A stretch of DNA of 64,000 nt from Fervidicoccus fontis Kam940 (GTDB taxonomy: Archaea > Thermoproteota > Thermoprotei_A > Sulfolobales > Fervidicoccaceae), in assembly GCF_000258425.1 (NCBI RefSeq), contig NC_017461.1, forward strand, positions 248,001 to 312,000, written 5' to 3'. A model generated the notes under the pieces. That model saw only the letters and a list, made by a program, of their open reading frames with translations. It had not been told where the DNA came from and did no database searches. This document shows, piece by piece, positions 29,138 through 60,670 of this stretch (position 1 is its first letter; each line of letters begins with the position of its first letter). Both the position numbers and the translations under genes were made by a program.

Positions 29138-29566
29138 ATGGATATAAAAAGAAAAGAGTATTCAGTTAAAGATTTAATGAGTTTTAATGTTGTTACAGTT
29201 GATCCTAATACTTCGTTAGATGAAGCAGTAAGGATTATGCTAGAAAATAATATTGGAAGTGTAGTTGTTGTAAACGAAAAAGGGGTTTTAATTGGAATAT
29301 TAACAGAAAAAGACTTAATCACAAAAGTGATTAAAGGAAAGCTCGATTTGAAGGATCTTAAGGTGAAAGATATAATGAGTGCTCCAGTCGTATACGTTGA
29401 GCCCGATACTCCTCTTTACGAAGCGGTTGCATTAATGCAATCAAAAAAGATAGGTCATCTTCCAGTTGTAAAAAATGGAAGAGTTGTAGGAATTATTGCA
29501 ACAGGAGATATTATATCAATAGCGCCTGAATATTTGGAGCTACTAAGAATAAAGAAAAAAAGATGA
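29138..29566 (+). CDS. two-CBS-domain protein
   Basis: 142 residues: two CBS domains back to back forming one Bateman module (VKDLMSFNVVTVDPNTSLDE... then VKDIMSAPVVYVEPDTPLYE...), each with the GILTEKD or GIIATGD adenine-nucleotide-binding pattern. No attached enzyme or DNA-binding domain. Probably senses AMP, ATP or AdoMet and regulates a partner. MetK follows downstream, which makes AdoMet a tempting but unproved ligand. Confidence 0.88.
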   Translation: MDIKRKEYSVKDLMSFNVVTVDPNTSLDEAVRIMLENNIGSVVVVNEKGVLIGILTEKDLITKVIKGKLDLKDLKVKDIMSAPVVYVEPDTPLYEAVALMQSKKIGHLPVVKNGRVVGIIATGDIISIAPEYLELLRIKKKR

Positions 29567-34566: not shown

Positions 34567-35382
34567 GTGATTTCTATTCCAGTTGGAAAAGTTAAAGCTG
34601 AGAACATATTGAAAAAATTTCCATATCTTTTGCCATATGACAAAGCTTCTCATGCTAGAGAGCTGATAAGAGAGTATAAAATAAGGGTCCTGGCTGTTGC
34701 GAATTCTCCTAATAATCCAAAAATAGTTGGACTAATAAAAAGAGTTAATATCTTAAATATAAGTTCGACAAAGTCAAATCTTCAGGTTAATGATATAATG
34801 GAACAGCCTATTGCTATTATTAGAGAAGATGATGAAGTTGATGTCATCCTTAATGCTTTATTAAAAAACAATGAATGGTATGGGATTGTTACAAACAGCA
34901 GTGGAGAATATAAAGGTATTGTCGGTCTAGAAGATGTAATTAATTATTATTACAAAAATGAGCCTGAAATCTTTAATGTTGAGGCCTCGGTGCTTTCAAA
35001 AAAATTAGAATATCTCTATGAAGATGACGAGATTTCAAAAGCTTGGTACAAAATGCTAGAACATGATTATGCTGGTTTTCCAGTTGTTAAGAGAGATTTA
35101 AAAGTTGTAGGATCTTTGACGCAACATGATTTGATAAGCAAAGGCTATACGAGAATCCAACTTGAATCACAGACCTCACCAAGAAAAATACTTGTAAAAG
35201 AAGCTATGAACGTGCCGCCTATATGCATCAAACAAAGCGATAAAGTTACAAATGCTGTAGATGAAATGGTAAATAAAAATGTAGGCAGAGTTTTTATTAT
35301 TGATGATGGTGGAAAAATAAAAGGAATAATAGACAGATCAGATATCGCTAGACTAATATTTGAAAAGAAAATTAAAAGTTAA
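34567..35382 (+). CDS. four-CBS-domain protein 1
   Basis: 271 residues, four CBS domains in two Bateman modules with nothing else. Domain boundaries show as DKASHARELIREYKIRVLAV, VNDIMEQPIAIIREDDEVDV, YEDDEISKAWYKMLEHDYAG and VKEAMNVPPICIKQSDKVTN, each followed by a GxI-x-xxD adenosyl-binding turn (GLIKRVNIL, GIVGLEDV, GSLTQHDL, GIIDRSDI). GTG 34567 is near the predicted transcription start. First of four adjacent paralogues; ligand and partner unknown. Confidence 0.85.
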   Translation: MISIPVGKVKAENILKKFPYLLPYDKASHARELIREYKIRVLAVANSPNNPKIVGLIKRVNILNISSTKSNLQVNDIMEQPIAIIREDDEVDVILNALLKNNEWYGIVTNSSGEYKGIVGLEDVINYYYKNEPEIFNVEASVLSKKLEYLYEDDEISKAWYKMLEHDYAGFPVVKRDLKVVGSLTQHDLISKGYTRIQLESQTSPRKILVKEAMNVPPICIKQSDKVTNAVDEMVNKNVGRVFIIDDGGKIKGIIDRSDIARLIFEKKIKS

Positions 35383-35396
35383 ATAGGTGAATTAAT

Positions 35397-36329
35397 TTGG
35401 GTTCAAATTATTTTAGAAGCAGGATAGAAGGTTATAGATGGCTTAGGAGCGATGGGAAGCCCAGTTTCAGTACAAGGGTATATAGAGTAGAAAAAGAGCT
35501 CGAAAGATTAGCAAAGAAAATCTTTGTTAGCGTAAGTCAAACTTCACCTGTTTTAGATGCAATTGAAAAAATGTATACATTTCAAGAAGAGCAATTGTTA
35601 GTGCTACATGGAGAGAGTAATTTTTCAGGTTTAGTGACAAGTGAAAACGTTATTGATTATTTAGGTGGGGGGGAGCTTTATAACATTGTCATGGATAGGC
35701 ATGGTGGGGAAATCCATAGCGCTTTAAATGAGCAAGTCAAAACGATAATGATAAAGGAATCTCCATTTGTATATATCAATGAAAAGCTTCCTGACGTCAT
35801 ATCATCAATGATTAAAAATAAAACAAGAGCTCTACCCGTCTTATATAAAGATAACACAGTATATGGAATAATTACGCAGAGAGATATTGTAATGCTATTG
35901 GCAGAAAAGAGGACCGGAGTCAAAGCAGGTGAAATTTGTTCACCTATCATTTCAGTTAATTCTCTTGATCCTCTTATTGTCGGCATGAAAATGCTTGTTC
36001 AGACAAGCTTAGATAGCATATATGTAAAAAATGAGATGGATCAGATAATAGGTACTTTAGATTCAAGTGGAATAGTACAGCTTTTCGGTTCACATGAGGC
36101 TTTTAAGTTCGTTAAAAAAGGATACTTAACAGAAGTTAATTCTATACCAATAAAAGATGTTATGCAGTTTAATATTGAGAGAGTTTATAAGCAGGTCGAT
36201 ATGGGTGATGTAATAAGTAAAATGTTCAATAAAAAGCTCAAAACTGTTCTTGTAACAGACGAGAATGATGAAGATATTGGCATGATAACATTTGATGACG
36301 CTTTTTTTGTTTTAGCCTTGCCTATTTAA
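35397..36329 (+). CDS. four-CBS-domain protein 2
   Basis: 310 residues from TTG 35397, with GGTGA about seven bases upstream. A basic 35-residue N-terminal tail (NYFRSRIEGYRWLRSDGKP) precedes four CBS domains; the tail is not found in the other three paralogues and could bind nucleic acid or a protein. The first and fourth CBS domains are the most diverged, while VYGIITQRDIVMLLAEK in the second is canonical. Fourteen bases after the previous gene. Confidence 0.82.
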   Translation: MGSNYFRSRIEGYRWLRSDGKPSFSTRVYRVEKELERLAKKIFVSVSQTSPVLDAIEKMYTFQEEQLLVLHGESNFSGLVTSENVIDYLGGGELYNIVMDRHGGEIHSALNEQVKTIMIKESPFVYINEKLPDVISSMIKNKTRALPVLYKDNTVYGIITQRDIVMLLAEKRTGVKAGEICSPIISVNSLDPLIVGMKMLVQTSLDSIYVKNEMDQIIGTLDSSGIVQLFGSHEAFKFVKKGYLTEVNSIPIKDVMQFNIERVYKQVDMGDVISKMFNKKLKTVLVTDENDEDIGMITFDDAFFVLALPI

Positions 36330-36363
36330 TTTTTGCAAAAATATCATTGGGGTTGAAATCTAA

Positions 36364-37209
36364 ATGGTCGTAAAAATAAATGACTATATAAGTTCTCCTG
36401 TTATTTCCGTATTACCTTCTGATACCTTGGCATATGCGAGAAACTTAATGCTTAGACACGAAATAAGCCGGCTCCTTGTTATTGATGAGGGCAAGCTTGT
36501 AGGAATTCTCACATCATCCGATCTCTTAAAAGCCTTGAGCGTTCCAGAATTTTCTAACGTATCGTGGGATAAAATTTTAGTTAGAGATGTGATGAGTAAA
36601 AATGTTATAACCATAAAAATAAACTCTTCAATTTCAGATGCTGCTGCTCTGATGAAAAAATACATGATTGGTTCACTGGCTGTAATAGACAACAATGGAG
36701 ATGTCGTCGGATTAATTACGAGAACCGATTTAATCAAAGCATACGCTGACAATTACACAAATAATTATACAGTTAAAGATTATATGGACAAAAATCCGCC
36801 AACAATATCACCATTTCATCCAATTACTTCAGTATTTGACAAAATTGAGGAAAAGCCATATTACAAGGTAATCATAGTAGACAGCGGAAAGCCGGTCGGA
36901 ATCATAACTAAGAAAGATATAATATTTCTAAGAAAGGATGTATTTTCTAGGCAGGAAAAATATATAAAAAGAGACGAGCTTCTAGAAAAAGGAAGAACGG
37001 GCGGAGTTAGATATTATATCGTCCCTCTTGCAAGCGATATTATGAGTACAAATTTGGTGACTGTTTATCCAGACGAAAAGCTTCCAGAAGCAGCAAAAGT
37101 TATGATAAAAAATAAGATAGGAAGCTTAGTTGTTATAAGCGAATCTAATGGCCTTCTCTTAGGGTTGCTGACGAAAAATGAAATAATAGATGCTATAAGT
37201 AAGCTTTGA
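36364..37209 (+). CDS. four-CBS-domain protein 3
   Basis: 281 residues from ATG 36364 with GGGGTTGA upstream. The best-conserved of the four: all four CBS domains show the beta-alpha-beta core and closing turn (LVGILTSSDLL, VVGLITRTDLI, PVGIITKKDII, LLGLLTKNEII), with the -DxMS- start motifs VRDVMSKNVITI and ASDIMSTNLVTV. A basic linker (RQEKYIKRDELLEKGRTGG) joins the third and fourth domains. Confidence 0.87.
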   Translation: MVVKINDYISSPVISVLPSDTLAYARNLMLRHEISRLLVIDEGKLVGILTSSDLLKALSVPEFSNVSWDKILVRDVMSKNVITIKINSSISDAAALMKKYMIGSLAVIDNNGDVVGLITRTDLIKAYADNYTNNYTVKDYMDKNPPTISPFHPITSVFDKIEEKPYYKVIIVDSGKPVGIITKKDIIFLRKDVFSRQEKYIKRDELLEKGRTGGVRYYIVPLASDIMSTNLVTVYPDEKLPEAAKVMIKNKIGSLVVISESNGLLLGLLTKNEIIDAISKL

Positions 37210-37219
37210 GGTGGGAAAA

Positions 37220-38035
37220 ATGGCATGTGATATAAAAAATTTATTAAATGAGAATGTTAGCTTTCTATTGAGAACAGATTTTCCGACTATTGATAAAAAT
37301 CAAACACTCACGCAAGCTTTCAAATTAATGGAAAAGTATAGAATTGATAGAGTTGTTGTCACGGAAAACAAAATACCAATAGGTATAATGACAAAAAAAG
37401 ACGTTCTGAATAAGTTAATGGTAGAAAGGACAAGATTAGTTTCTGCATCAAGATTGCATGTTTCGAGCTTTTATACGCCAAATCTATATCATGTTGATGA
37501 AAGATCAACAGTAGCCGATGCTGGAAGAGAAATGAAAGAGAAAAAGATCAGTTCAGTTGCAGTAATGAAGGACGATGCTCTAGTGGGTATCGTAATAAGA
37601 ATGGACTACTCAAAGCTATTGTCAAGCTGTGAAGAAATTTCATCAAAAAGTTTTGCATCTTCTTTGAAAAAAGTTGTTAGATTTGGAGAAAGAATTACAA
37701 GTCTAAGAGAAATATTCCTCAAAGAAGATGTAGTATACCTACCAGTAGTTGACCCAAATAATTATTTAGCAGGGTATATAACAGTCAACAATATTGCTGA
37801 TGCACTTTTATTTTATCAAAAAGACACAAAAGAATCTCTCAGGAAAGTTGCAAGAAAAGAAATTGTGGTAGAAGAAGTAATGAGTAGACCTCCTTTATTC
37901 GTATATTCAAGCGATCCGATTTCAAAAGCATCAAAATTAATAATAGAGCATCAGTCAAGAGGAGTTTCAGTAATTGAGAAAGATTTGCTAATTGGAATAA
38001 TAGATGATAATGATATATTAAGAAACATAATTTGA
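37220..38035 (+). CDS. four-CBS-domain protein 4
   Basis: 271 residues from ATG 37220, which has GAGGTGGG four bases upstream; GTG 37211 is inside that site. Four CBS domains (IGIMTKKDVL, VGIVIRMDYS, AGYITVNNIA, IGIIDDNDIL), the second and third with altered closing turns. The stop codon of the previous gene lies ten bases before, so the four genes are one operon. Confidence 0.85.
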   Translation: MACDIKNLLNENVSFLLRTDFPTIDKNQTLTQAFKLMEKYRIDRVVVTENKIPIGIMTKKDVLNKLMVERTRLVSASRLHVSSFYTPNLYHVDERSTVADAGREMKEKKISSVAVMKDDALVGIVIRMDYSKLLSSCEEISSKSFASSLKKVVRFGERITSLREIFLKEDVVYLPVVDPNNYLAGYITVNNIADALLFYQKDTKESLRKVARKEIVVEEVMSRPPLFVYSSDPISKASKLIIEHQSRGVSVIEKDLLIGIIDDNDILRNII

Positions 38036-56769: not shown

Positions 56770-57372
56770 TTATAAGTTATCTTTTTGAATAGAAATTTTT
56801 TCCTTTTTTATTAGTAGGTTAAGCATTTTCTCAATATTTTTGAGTCTTTTATCAAGAATACGAACAGCATTTAAGTTTTTATCTACTTCAGCTTTTACAA
56901 AAAATCCATCTTTTCTTATAATAGAGAAATCTTTACCAAAAATCTCATCGTAAATTCCTAGGAGAAAATAATCTTTAGAGATTTTCCCTCCTTTAGGCAT
57001 ATTGTATTTGTTAAATATTCCACCTAAAAATATTCTGTTTAGTTCTGTAGTTAAAAATTTCTTCACATATCCACCTTCTTTTTTCGCATCGTTATATCTG
57101 TCTTCACTTGCCTTATTATACCAATTTTTTACATGCGTTTCAATGTCTTTATAATTTATGCACATAGATAAAGTATGTTCAAAACCAGAATTAAACCAAG
57201 TTACGTTTATCTTTGATACATCTAATGGACTAATTTTTGAGGCAAGAATAATCCTTTCCTTTTCATCTAATTGGCACAAATAATGATTTTCCATAACATA
57301 ACTGCTTATACGTTCATTATCTTTTTTTACCTCAAAGAAAATCATAGGAATAATAACGTTTGCATGACTCAA
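56770..57372 (-). CDS. hypothetical protein
   Basis: 200 residues from TTG 57372 (MSHANVIIPMIFFEVKKD), which GGTGA precedes by five bases; the GTG at 57384 is in that site. Soluble, mixed alpha/beta at the start, with a Lys-rich amphipathic C-terminus (RLKNIEKMLNLLIKKEKI). No family is recognised. It lies convergent to the importer operon with four bases between stops and is divergent from the mevalonate genes. Confidence 0.6.
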   Translation of the reverse strand: MSHANVIIPMIFFEVKKDNERISSYVMENHYLCQLDEKERIILASKISPLDVSKINVTWFNSGFEHTLSMCINYKDIETHVKNWYNKASEDRYNDAKKEGGYVKKFLTTELNRIFLGGIFNKYNMPKGGKISKDYFLLGIYDEIFGKDFSIIRKDGFFVKAEVDKNLNAVRILDKRLKNIEKMLNLLIKKEKISIQKDNL

Positions 57373-57510
57373 TATTTTCACCACTTAATATTATTAGTTA
57401 AAACATAGACTTATCTAATTTTTATTTTTGATATAGTCTTTTGTCTAATTTTATTTTAGCAATAGTAAAAAATTTTAATAATAAAAGTTAAAGTTAATTT
57501 GGTGAAAATT

Positions 57511-58581
57511 TTGATAAGGATCTTTCCAGAAAGTAAGGCAGGAATTATTGGATGGGGAGCTTATATTCCAATATATAGAATTAAAGTTGAAGAAATAGCT
57601 GGTATGTGGGGCAATGATTTGGAATCGATTAAAGGTCTAAATGTCGAGGAAAAAAGCGTCGCTGGTATAGATGAAGATGCAATTACTATGGGATATGAAG
57701 CAGCAAAAAATGCCATCAAGAGGGCATTAATTAATCCAAAACAAATTGAGGCTGTGTTCTTTGGAAGCGAGTCAAAGCCATATGCTGTTAAGCCTAGTGC
57801 AACGGTTATTGCAGATGCATTAGGGATAACTCCCACTACTATGGCAAGCGACTTAGAATTTGCGTGCAGGGCTGGCAGCGAGGGAATTCGGGCTTCTATT
57901 GGACTAGTCTCTTCACAAATGGTTAATTATGCGCTTGTTATTGGAAGTGATACTGCCCAAGCTAATCCTGGCGATGTACTTGAATATACTGCTAGTAGTG
58001 GAGCTGCGGCATTCGTTATAGGTCCAAGTAATGAGGCAGTAGCAGTTTTTGAGGCATCATATACATATGTAACTGATACAACTGATTTTTGGAGAAGAAG
58101 TTTAAGTCCTTACCCTCTGCATGGGGAGGCATTTACGGGGGATCCCGCATATTTTGATCATATTGTAGGTGCTGTAAAAGGCTTGCTAAATAAAACAGGT
58201 TTAAAGGTAGAGGATTTCGACTATGCGATTTTTCACCAGCCAAATGGAAAATTTCCATTAAGAGTAGCTGAGAAGCTCGGTTTCCCAAAGGAAAAGGTGT
58301 TTCCCAGTATTGTGGTTAACAAGATAGGAAATACGTACAACGGATCTGCTTTACTGGGTCTTAGTAAGATCCTTGATAGTGTAGATCCTGGAAAAAGAAT
58401 TTTGGTTGCTCCATTCGGAAGCGGTGCGGGAAGTGATGCCTATAGTATTGTAACTACAGATAAGATTAAAAACAAAAGAGACCTAGCTAAAAAAGTCTCA
58501 GATTATATTGAAAAAAAGACTTACATAAATTACTCAACATATTCTAGATACAGGAACTTGATAAAAAAGATTGGTGTGTGA
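57511..58581 (+). CDS. mvaS: hydroxymethylglutaryl-CoA synthase
   Basis: 356 residues from TTG 57511, preceded by GGTGA. Catalytic Cys119 in DLEFACRAGSEG, the His of FHQPNGKFP, and GNTYNGSALLGL follow the archaeal HMG-CoA synthase pattern. It condenses acetyl-CoA with acetoacetyl-CoA for the mevalonate pathway of isoprenoid lipid synthesis. In archaea it forms a complex with a thiolase and a DUF35 protein (established for a methanogen); both are encoded directly downstream. Confidence 0.95.
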   Translation: MIRIFPESKAGIIGWGAYIPIYRIKVEEIAGMWGNDLESIKGLNVEEKSVAGIDEDAITMGYEAAKNAIKRALINPKQIEAVFFGSESKPYAVKPSATVIADALGITPTTMASDLEFACRAGSEGIRASIGLVSSQMVNYALVIGSDTAQANPGDVLEYTASSGAAAFVIGPSNEAVAVFEASYTYVTDTTDFWRRSLSPYPLHGEAFTGDPAYFDHIVGAVKGLLNKTGLKVEDFDYAIFHQPNGKFPLRVAEKLGFPKEKVFPSIVVNKIGNTYNGSALLGLSKILDSVDPGKRILVAPFGSGAGSDAYSIVTTDKIKNKRDLAKKVSDYIEKKTYINYSTYSRYRNLIKKIGV

Positions 58582-58586
58582 TTTAT

Positions 58587-59747
58587 ATGAGTGCATTTAT
58601 AACAGGATTTGGTCTGACTAAAATTTCAAGAGACTTTTACAGTACGATTGAAGATATGGTATATAATGCTGTGAAAAAAATGCTTGATCAATTTGGGAAT
58701 TTATCTTTCGTTGATACAGTTATAGTTGCAAACGCGTTTGGATATTCTATGCAAAGACAAAACATGTTTTCATCTTTAATATCTGAAGAGCTTGGAATAA
58801 AAGGTGCAAGAACCTTCAATGTAGAAGCAGGACAAATAAGTGGTCACTCTGGTTTAATCTTAGCTGACAGTTTAATAAAATCCGGTTATTCAAAACATGT
58901 CCTTTTGATTGGGTTTGAAAAAATGTCCGATTATAATTCAGAAGTTTATAATTCACTGATTTCTCAACTTACGAACATAGAATATGAAGGAATCTACGGC
59001 TCTACTTTAGCATCTAATTTCGGTATAATTGCTAGATATTATCAAGAGAAGTATGGATTGAAGGAGGAAGAATTTGCTAGTTGGCCGATTCTTATGCATG
59101 AAAACGCATCTGAAACGTATCATGCTCAGTTGAGGTTTAAAATCTCTACTAAGCAGGTGCTTGAATCAGAAGCGGTTTCTCTTCCAATCAGGATGTTACA
59201 TTCGCCACCAATTAGCGACGGTGCTGCTGCATTGCTTATTAGTAGAGAGGATCGGGAGTTAGTGGGTAAAGAAAAAAGGGTAGTAGAAATAAGAAAAGGA
59301 TGCATTAGTTCGGGAACATTTGAACTTTCTTTAAGAGAAAGTTTGTTGTTTTTTGATTCGTTAGAATATGCAAGACAATGCTATGGGATAAACGCTTTTG
59401 CGGAAGATATAGCTAAAACCGAATATATAAGCATGTCTGATGATTATACAATAACTGCTGCTGTTATTGCAGAAACTATAGGTTTATCTAAAAAAGGTCA
59501 ATTTTTTGCCGATATTTACAGTGGGAAGTTTCGGATCGGAGATAAGCAAATGATAAATATAACTGGAGGTACAAAGGCAAGAGGGTACCCGATTGGTGCA
59601 TTGGGGGTTTATGAAGCTGCAGAAATTTCCGCTATGATGTCGGGAGAAAAAATAAGAAGTAATCAAATTGATTTAAATGATGCTATTATGATTGGAATAG
59701 GAGGAGCGGGCAGCTCTTCTGCTATTTTGCATTTGACAAAAGCCTAA
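58587..59747 (+). CDS. thiolase family protein (acetyl-CoA acetyltransferase position) lacking the catalytic Cys
   Basis: 386 residues from ATG 58587. Thiolase fold throughout, in the gene position of the acetoacetyl-CoA thiolase. The nucleophile region, normally V-E-A-x-C-A-S-G, reads VEAGQISGHSG, with Gln83 in place of Cys; and the C-terminal G-H-P motif reads RGYPIGALG with Tyr334 in place of His. IGIGGAGSSSAIL ends the protein without the second Cys of biosynthetic thiolases. It may be a non-catalytic scaffold for HMG-CoA synthase and the DUF35 protein, or use other residues. The start overlaps the mvaS end closely. Confidence 0.85.
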   Translation: MSAFITGFGLTKISRDFYSTIEDMVYNAVKKMLDQFGNLSFVDTVIVANAFGYSMQRQNMFSSLISEELGIKGARTFNVEAGQISGHSGLILADSLIKSGYSKHVLLIGFEKMSDYNSEVYNSLISQLTNIEYEGIYGSTLASNFGIIARYYQEKYGLKEEEFASWPILMHENASETYHAQLRFKISTKQVLESEAVSLPIRMLHSPPISDGAAALLISREDRELVGKEKRVVEIRKGCISSGTFELSLRESLLFFDSLEYARQCYGINAFAEDIAKTEYISMSDDYTITAAVIAETIGLSKKGQFFADIYSGKFRIGDKQMINITGGTKARGYPIGALGVYEAAEISAMMSGEKIRSNQIDLNDAIMIGIGGAGSSSAILHLTKA

Positions 59748-59758
59748 AGGTGAGAAAC

Positions 59759-60160
59759 ATGGAAAAACTTTCAATTTCTAAATTTTGGAGGAAAAAATCA
59801 CAATATTATAATTTAGTAGGAAAAAGATGCAAAAAATGCGGATATGTTTTTTATCCGCCAAAACATGTTTGCCCCAAATGTAACTCAAGTGATTTAGAGG
59901 ACTACTTCCCCCCTGAAACGGGAACATTGATATCATTTACCAAGCTATATGAAACACCAAATACCTATAAATCTCAGAAGCCAATTTATTTGGGAATAAT
60001 CAAATTTGGAGAAATTAACGTTCTTACTCAAATAGTTGATGTGCAAAATGAGGATGAACTAAAGCCAGGAATAACTGTAGAAAGAGTCTTTAGGAAAATC
60101 AACGAAGATGGAAATTATGGACTGATATACTATGGGATTAAAGTTAGGCCAGTCGTATAA
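59759..60160 (+). CDS. DUF35 OB-fold/zinc-ribbon protein (thiolase-HMG-CoA synthase complex component)
   Basis: 133 residues. A rubredoxin-like zinc ribbon with two CxxC pairs (GKRCKKCGYVFYPPKHVCPKC) is followed by an OB fold (ETGTLISFTKLYETP). In the archaeal complex the DUF35 protein bridges thiolase and HMG-CoA synthase and helps pass acetoacetyl-CoA. AAAGGTGA precedes ATG 59759, and GTG 59750 lies in that site. Third gene of the operon. Confidence 0.92.
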   Translation: MEKLSISKFWRKKSQYYNLVGKRCKKCGYVFYPPKHVCPKCNSSDLEDYFPPETGTLISFTKLYETPNTYKSQKPIYLGIIKFGEINVLTQIVDVQNEDELKPGITVERVFRKINEDGNYGLIYYGIKVRPVV

Positions 60161-60355
60161 AAACGATATAGAAATCTTTATGCACAATACAATAGATTTT
60201 TTCTATATATAATATAATAAATAAATGTTTATAAGTTCTTTTTATTTAAAAATATTCAAATTAAAAAATTTCAAAAAGTGTAAAACTTAGATATATTTTC
60301 AATTTGTTTAAGAAAAACATGTAAAACAATGTTCAAAAAGAGGGTGTATATAAAT

Positions 60356-60670
60356 ATGAGCAAACCGAAAAAATTAATCTTAGTTTCAGCGGAACATCAT
60401 CCTTATCATAAAAAATGGCTTCAGCTATCTCAAGAAGTAGCACAAACATTAGGATTAGACTTTGAATTAAAACTCGAAGATTACGTTTTCGCTATCGAAC
60501 ACGGAGTGACAGATGAGCTGGGAATGGCAGGCTTACCTCAGCTTTTTGTAGAGATGGAAGATGGCAGGATAGCGGTAGTCCTTTCGGAAGTACCATTAGA
60601 TTCAAACTATCAGCCAGATTTTGAGAAGTCAAAAGCTGAAGTTATAGAAAAGATTAAAAATATTGAATAA
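60356..60670 (+). CDS. small thioredoxin-fold protein with HPYH instead of CPYC
   Basis: 104 residues from ATG 60356, with GAGGGTG upstream. The layout is that of a glutaredoxin/thioredoxin-like domain: strand KLILVSAEH, then His15-Pro16-Tyr17-His18 where glutaredoxins have CPYC, helix KKWLQLSQEVAQTLG, and Gly-Leu-Pro61 in the cis-Pro position before a strand FVEMEDGRIAVV. No Cys is present in the whole protein. It therefore cannot be a redox disulfide protein; metal binding or a structural role is possible. The assignment to the fold is by pattern only. Confidence 0.6.
   Translation: MSKPKKLILVSAEHHPYHKKWLQLSQEVAQTLGLDFELKLEDYVFAIEHGVTDELGMAGLPQLFVEMEDGRIAVVLSEVPLDSNYQPDFEKSKAEVIEKIKNIE

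Follow-up and report, generated by a model that had tools for sequence, protein, structure and literature searches.

A thiolase-like subunit without catalytic residues in the mevalonate operon of Fervidicoccus fontis, probably a pseudo-thiolase of the HMG-CoA synthase complex

The stretch of DNA analysed here, which we call the window, comprises 64,000 nucleotides of the heat-loving archaeon Fervidicoccus fontis Kam940 (contig NC_017461.1, positions 248,001 to 312,000). Between window positions 57499 and 60160 three adjacent genes are encoded on one strand. The first, mvaS (57499..58581, +), encodes HMG-CoA synthase (NCBIfam NF003274, E 1e-167); its start is uncertain, with a TTG at 57499 and a family match that begins near 57535. 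It is followed by a gene for a thiolase-like subunit (58587..59747, +) with the Pfam domains Thiolase_N and Thiolase_C_1, whose unbroken frame of 386 amino acids runs from an ATG at 58587 to a stop ending at 59747, with an alternative GTG at 58578. The third gene (59750..60160, +) starts at GTG 59750 or ATG 59759 and encodes a DUF35 subunit made of a zinc ribbon and an OB fold (Pfam PF12172, E 7e-12; PF01796, E 1e-8). The profile matches of the two outer genes confirm the original prediction that the thiolase gene lies between mvaS and the DUF35 gene, and the three together show the gene order of the archaeal thiolase/HMGCS/DUF35 complex. The thiolase and synthase of this complex are known for handing acetoacetyl-CoA from one active site to the other by way of a CoA site that they share.

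Several further frames were observed nearby. A 204-residue frame without a Pfam match (56770-57384, -) is divergent to mvaS, and a 189-residue frame has the same place and strand in another locus of the order (L007, 3222-3791). A frame of about 106 residues, again without a Pfam match (60329-60670, +), is, as judged by eye, clearly similar to one found 3' of the operon in that locus (L007, 6615-6983). Elsewhere in the window, four CBS-domain proteins are encoded consecutively (34567-38035, +; Pfam PF00571), with a separate two-CBS protein upstream of this row (29138-29566; also PF00571).

The best PDB match of the thiolase-like protein is 6esq_A, the thiolase of the thiolase/HMG-CoA synthase complex of Methanothermococcus thermolithotrophicus. 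Window residues 4-383 align with residues 5-387 of this chain (HMMER, E 5.7e-45), and by sequence the protein has the thiolase fold. The three residues on which acetoacetyl-CoA thiolases depend are all replaced. At the nucleophile site the window protein reads VEAGQISG where 6esq_A has VEAACASG, which places Gln83 (codon caa, 58833..58835, +) at the position of Cys85. At the HDxF site SDDY stands for HDCF, with Ser284 (tct, 59436..59438, +) in place of His, and at the GHP site KARGYPIG stands for KAAGHALG, with Tyr334 (tac, 59586..59588, +) in place of His. A MAFFT alignment with other fetched thiolases puts all three sites in the same columns as HMMER does. The replacements at 83 and 334 had been recognised in the original prediction, and for both of them codon and alignments agree; the exchange at 284 is a third loss that it did not include. 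Against the NCBIfam equivalog NF053570 the protein scores 184 bits, with a cut-off of 600 bits, a shortfall that distance alone could explain. The synthase beside it has an intact site, with GSESKPY (Glu), EFACRAG (Cys) and IFHQPNGK (His) as read in columns against other mvaS-adjacent copies. The locus thus resembles the M. thermolithotrophicus complex (PDB 6esq/6et9) in the full-length alignment of its thiolase, in its synthase site and in the DUF35 gene alongside. It differs in a thiolase without the nucleophilic Cys and both His, and because of this the channelled pair cannot carry out its first step there in the way described.

Two trivial explanations were rejected. A sequencing error or frameshift is ruled out, since all seven copies of the family f1, to which the window belongs, lack the Cys in our sample. 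A substitute Cys elsewhere in the protein is ruled out as well: in the seven-row family alignment, any column with a Cys shows it in just a single row, and the family has no Cys column in common. An AlphaFold model of the monomer, built from 4 sequences, reached a pLDDT of 46 and was not used.

Is the loss peculiar to the window protein, as had been supposed? We searched 59 genomes of the same order, fetched the loci and read the active-site columns on alignments. Beside mvaS, 43 thiolases were found in 42 genomes; 8 have the Cys and 35 across the order are Cys-less, so that over much of the order the loss is the rule. The Cys-less copies carry Glu (19, one of these rows being a 168-residue fragment at a contig end), Asp (9), Gly (5), Gln (1) or Leu (1). 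The synthases are conserved throughout, as all 43 mvaS-adjacent and 6 solitary ones that were aligned keep Glu, Cys and His. Among thiolases that do not lie beside mvaS (families f2, f3, f4 and f9), 19 of 20 have the Cys; the exception is a Glu copy (L066 of G023), for which the mvaS is likely at the edge of another contig (L105).

All seven f1 genomes of the sample, F. fontis included, have a Cys-less copy beside mvaS as a full-length open frame, and an eighth genome of the family (G059) has a partial copy with Gly at the nucleophile site. Over these seven rows, position 83 reads Q/G/G/G/G/E/G, position 284 S/S/S/P/L/T/L and position 334 Y/H/H/H/H/H/F. The families f5, f6 and f2 show Glu at the nucleophile site in 17 of 17 rows and mostly keep both His. 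Asp is found in 5 of 5 rows of f11, with Tyr replacing the GHP His, and Asp or Glu in 4 of 4 rows of f7. With the acid conserved and both His mostly kept outside f1, the site there resembles a functional one more than a decaying one, and total catalytic loss may hold only for f1.

The loss may be old. We built a quick maximum-likelihood tree from 78 proteins, which is tentative given its long branches. In it the 33 Cys-less copies from f1, f2, f5, f6, f7 and f11 group together (SH-aLRT 95), and the copy from f8 is their neighbour (92). Outside this group lie the f10 copy and the Ser-type proteins, and on the same tree three changes of the Cys state suffice. The grouping leans also on position 82, which is Gly in 33 of 33 Cys-less rows from six families vs Ala in 26 of 26 Cys rows; this comparison leaves L059 (f8), L025 (f10) and the fragment L108 (f5) out of the Cys-less groups, and out of the Cys set L071 and L073 (mvaS-adjacent, f2 and f9) as well as Cys paralogues from further subgroups, among them L041, L076, L077, L078 and L102.

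The subunit also evolves faster where the Cys is gone. Among pairs with an mvaS identity of 68-74%, the thiolases are 65% identical where both complexes carry the Cys, 50% identical for other Cys-less copies and 43% identical within f1 (4, 37 and 10 pairs, which are not independent). An alignment of 26 Cys-bearing copies has 101 near-invariant columns; all seven f1 rows conserve 32 of these, and 25 are conserved in none of the seven. This acceleration comes without decay of the frames. In three pairs from other families the Cys-less subunits have dN/dS values of 0.035, 0.093 and 0.114 vs 0.022, 0.054 and 0.063 for mvaS, so that, as judged from these sequences, purifying selection on Cys-less subunits is visible where synonymous change is unsaturated. 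Within f1 the ratio says little because dS is saturated. Since the catalytic positions scatter and the subunit is fast in f1, the window's family looks catalytically dead, and the acid-bearing Cys-less copies of other families may have a function of their own.

A mirror image of this situation is encountered in f2. Here the mvaS operon has a Glu-type thiolase; the Cys thiolase of a second operon, which also contains DUF35, is preceded by a short frame of 220-300 residues. Six such frames, each located directly before the Cys thiolase, are HMG-CoA-synthase-like: L008 4108-4971, L009 4100-4969, L034 2624-3427, L035 722-1495, L038 2635-3537 and L103 1338-2213. Those of L008 and L009, which stem from named Sulfolobales MAGs outside the 59-genome sample, match the NCBIfam synthase model (E 2.6e-6 and 1.4e-7), and the other four match the L008 frame with E 5e-8 to 6e-5. 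Frames at the same place in L054 and L055 gave no match to either L008 or the NCBIfam synthase model. In the alignment none of the eight short frames has the Glu, the Cys or the His of the synthase at its place. It thus seems that one f2 complex has retained its synthase site and its counterpart the thiolase site, and the two would be sisters that arose by duplication.

For F. fontis these findings raise a sharp question: where does acetoacetyl-CoA come from? The genome (G000) is a single contig of 1,319,206 bp, and a search with P0001 and PF00108 found no Cys thiolase in it; only a Ser-type thiolase and, weakly, mvaS were matched. The original prediction had acetoacetyl-CoA supplied by another thiolase if the window protein is inactive, and proposed a genome search for one with an intact Cys. 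The supply from another enzyme is likely, with the Ser-type protein as candidate; the intact Cys was not found in this genome by either search. Of the 35 genomes whose mvaS-adjacent copy is Cys-less, residue reading shows a Cys thiolase elsewhere in 27, mostly classical ones (L079-L099) and otherwise of the SCP2 kind, that of G001 being a fragment at a contig end; one more (G032) has a classical thiolase by score alone. No Cys thiolase was found in the remaining 7, namely G000, G008, G019, G029, G040 and G048 of f1 together with G047, which is 81% complete. The only Cys-bearing thiolase piece found in G029 is a truncated remnant of 143 residues with the motif VENACVSS (L045 2310-2741). Cys thiolases do occur in two further genomes of the window's family, G057 and G059.

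The analysis covered eight genomes of the family, four of them at least 90% complete, and other routes were considered in these four. All have HMG-CoA reductase. Crotonase (PF00378) and CoA transferase (PF01144) were found in none of the four, and searches for 3-hydroxyacyl-CoA dehydrogenase (PF02737) gave only short Rossmann matches below 28 bits. A carboxyltransferase (PF01039) is present in all four, for which reason acetoacetyl-CoA may also be formed from malonyl-CoA.

The second thiolase of F. fontis (P0004, G000:C1:570333-571490) carries Ser at the nucleophile site (VENTSGSGG) and has HDM and GHP intact. The gene after it encodes 106 amino acids and scores with the DUF35 profile. P0004 and a plasmid-borne Haloferax mediterranei thiolase, which has the same Ser/His/His, are 46% identical, and the small partner genes found in both organisms encode proteins that are 32% identical. 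PMC7137286 states that acetoacetyl-CoA is made by the beta-ketothiolases of H. mediterranei, which have Ser-His-His as catalytic residues and depend on a beta subunit with an OB fold. The BktB gene pair is given as HFX_6004/6003 in PMC8387396, and the plasmid protein WP_004060618 would be the product of the studied gene HFX_6004. P0004 thus shares with the haloarchaeal BktB/PhaA enzymes the Ser site, both His and the gene for an OB-fold partner; the window protein, in contrast, is 27% identical in this comparison and has none of the three residues. For a relative from Sulfolobus tokodaii, named ST0096 in PMC6392133, a solved structure (4yzo) was deposited under the label of a putative acyl-CoA acyltransferase. 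In more distant relatives the nucleophile site is occupied by Ala, Thr, Pro or Cys, which identifies Ser as a feature of this thiolase group and not of the wider clade. Such variation casts some doubt on the Ser-type protein, but its match to H. mediterranei and the account in the review PMC7137286 favour it after all. From its sequence, P0004 is probably the best candidate for the source of acetoacetyl-CoA, the starting compound for membrane lipids, and provides one testable enzyme.

What, then, is the protein encoded at 58587-59747? We consider it likely to be a pseudo-thiolase of the HMG-CoA synthase/thiolase/DUF35 complex, which makes no acetoacetyl-CoA and is kept as a scaffold and as partner in the CoA site. 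An inactive subunit that shapes the complex had been put forward in the original prediction, and the three lost residues, their free variation among relatives, the lack of a shared Cys column and the faster evolution all support it. The subunits are predicted to assemble as in 6esq. In this arrangement the synthase would take acetoacetyl-CoA from solution, where it would arrive from the second thiolase, and condense it with its own acetyl-Cys. The pseudo-thiolase would, together with DUF35, keep the synthase in place and supply the missing part of the CoA-binding interface, a role comparable to that proposed for PhlA in the assembly around PhlC. The gene would be retained because a subunit of thiolase fold is needed by the complex and by the CoA site that its subunits share; the dead subunit would then matter for stability or CoA binding.

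A precedent is given by the acyltransferase PhlABC (PDB 5m3k), which similarly unites a synthase-like, a thiolase-like and a DUF35 subunit, with one thiolase-fold partner devoid of its residues. As described in PMC6392133, the HMG-CoA-synthase-like PhlA lacks Cys and Glu, activity needs all three subunits, and PhlA is considered necessary if the complex is to assemble properly around its active subunit, PhlC. The roles are reversed with respect to the window operon, since in PhlABC the synthase-like subunit is dead and the thiolase-like one active. Such a scaffold is not needed universally: at two loci of f9 (L109, L110) the DUF35 gene comes immediately after mvaS, and no thiolase gene separates them. 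The genomes of these two loci have a Cys thiolase elsewhere, without DUF35.

An alternative to the pseudo-thiolase is a subunit repurposed for another, non-covalent reaction on CoA esters such as an aldol or retro-aldol reaction or a decarboxylation. A model for this is provided by Ltp2 and Sal, Cys-less aldolases of the thiolase fold that bind DUF35 (PDB 6ok1), and CtSal has Gly at the Cys position according to PMC12329534. Two plasmid-encoded 'lipid-transfer proteins' that are Ltp2-like (YDCF, YDHF) even have Tyr at the GHP position, like the window protein, and the conserved Glu or Asp of other families, mostly with both His, would also fit a new chemistry. However, the Tyr base of Ltp2 and Sal (YDHF/YDCY) is Ser in the SDDY of the window protein and S, P, L or T within its family, which makes an Ltp2/Sal-like aldolase role less likely, and the site varies even between species of one family. 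Overall we regard repurposing as unlikely.

Could the gene simply be a relic in the course of being lost? Fast evolution, the loss of catalytic residues and the f9 loci that have no thiolase gene beside mvaS would suit such a process. Against it speak the full-length open frames beside mvaS in all seven family copies of the sample, the low dN/dS of Cys-less copies in other families and the extension of the Cys-less group over six families, so that decay appears very improbable.

That the protein still is an acetoacetyl-CoA thiolase, for instance by direct transfer between two bound CoA esters, is the least credible reading, as both His are gone along with the Cys, most relatives have Gly at the nucleophile site, and Gln is to our knowledge not known as an acyl-accepting nucleophile in the thiolase fold. 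It would fit the position of the gene in the complex operon and the lack of a Cys thiolase among those found in the genome, and the Cys is dispensable in this fold, since haloarchaeal beta-ketothiolases are active with Ser in its place (PMC7137286).

If the pseudo-thiolase is taken as the starting point, the observations across the order can be drawn together in a broader scenario, which we offer tentatively and hold to be somewhat less probable than not. The channelling complex would have split within the order: its thiolase half ceased early on to be an enzyme, the nucleophile gave way to a conserved acid, maybe with a new function, and the production of acetoacetyl-CoA moved elsewhere. Two sister complexes of one family would have lost opposite sites, and in the window's family the entire supply would rest on the Ser-type thiolase. 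If many members of this large order do have one dead site, channelling cannot explain why they retain the complex, and the routine annotation of such a subunit as acetyl-CoA acetyltransferase misleads. A literature search that extended neither to the complex paper of 2018 nor to that on the Ltp2 structure turned up no recognised description of Cys-less thiolases in this complex.

A further observation concerns the relatives of the Ser-type protein at L155, L157, L158, L165, L169 and L177, which keep both His and show Ala, Thr or Pro where the nucleophile belongs. Several of them adjoin a zinc-ribbon-like small gene, and together they form a wider set of Cys-less thiolases in Thermoproteota.
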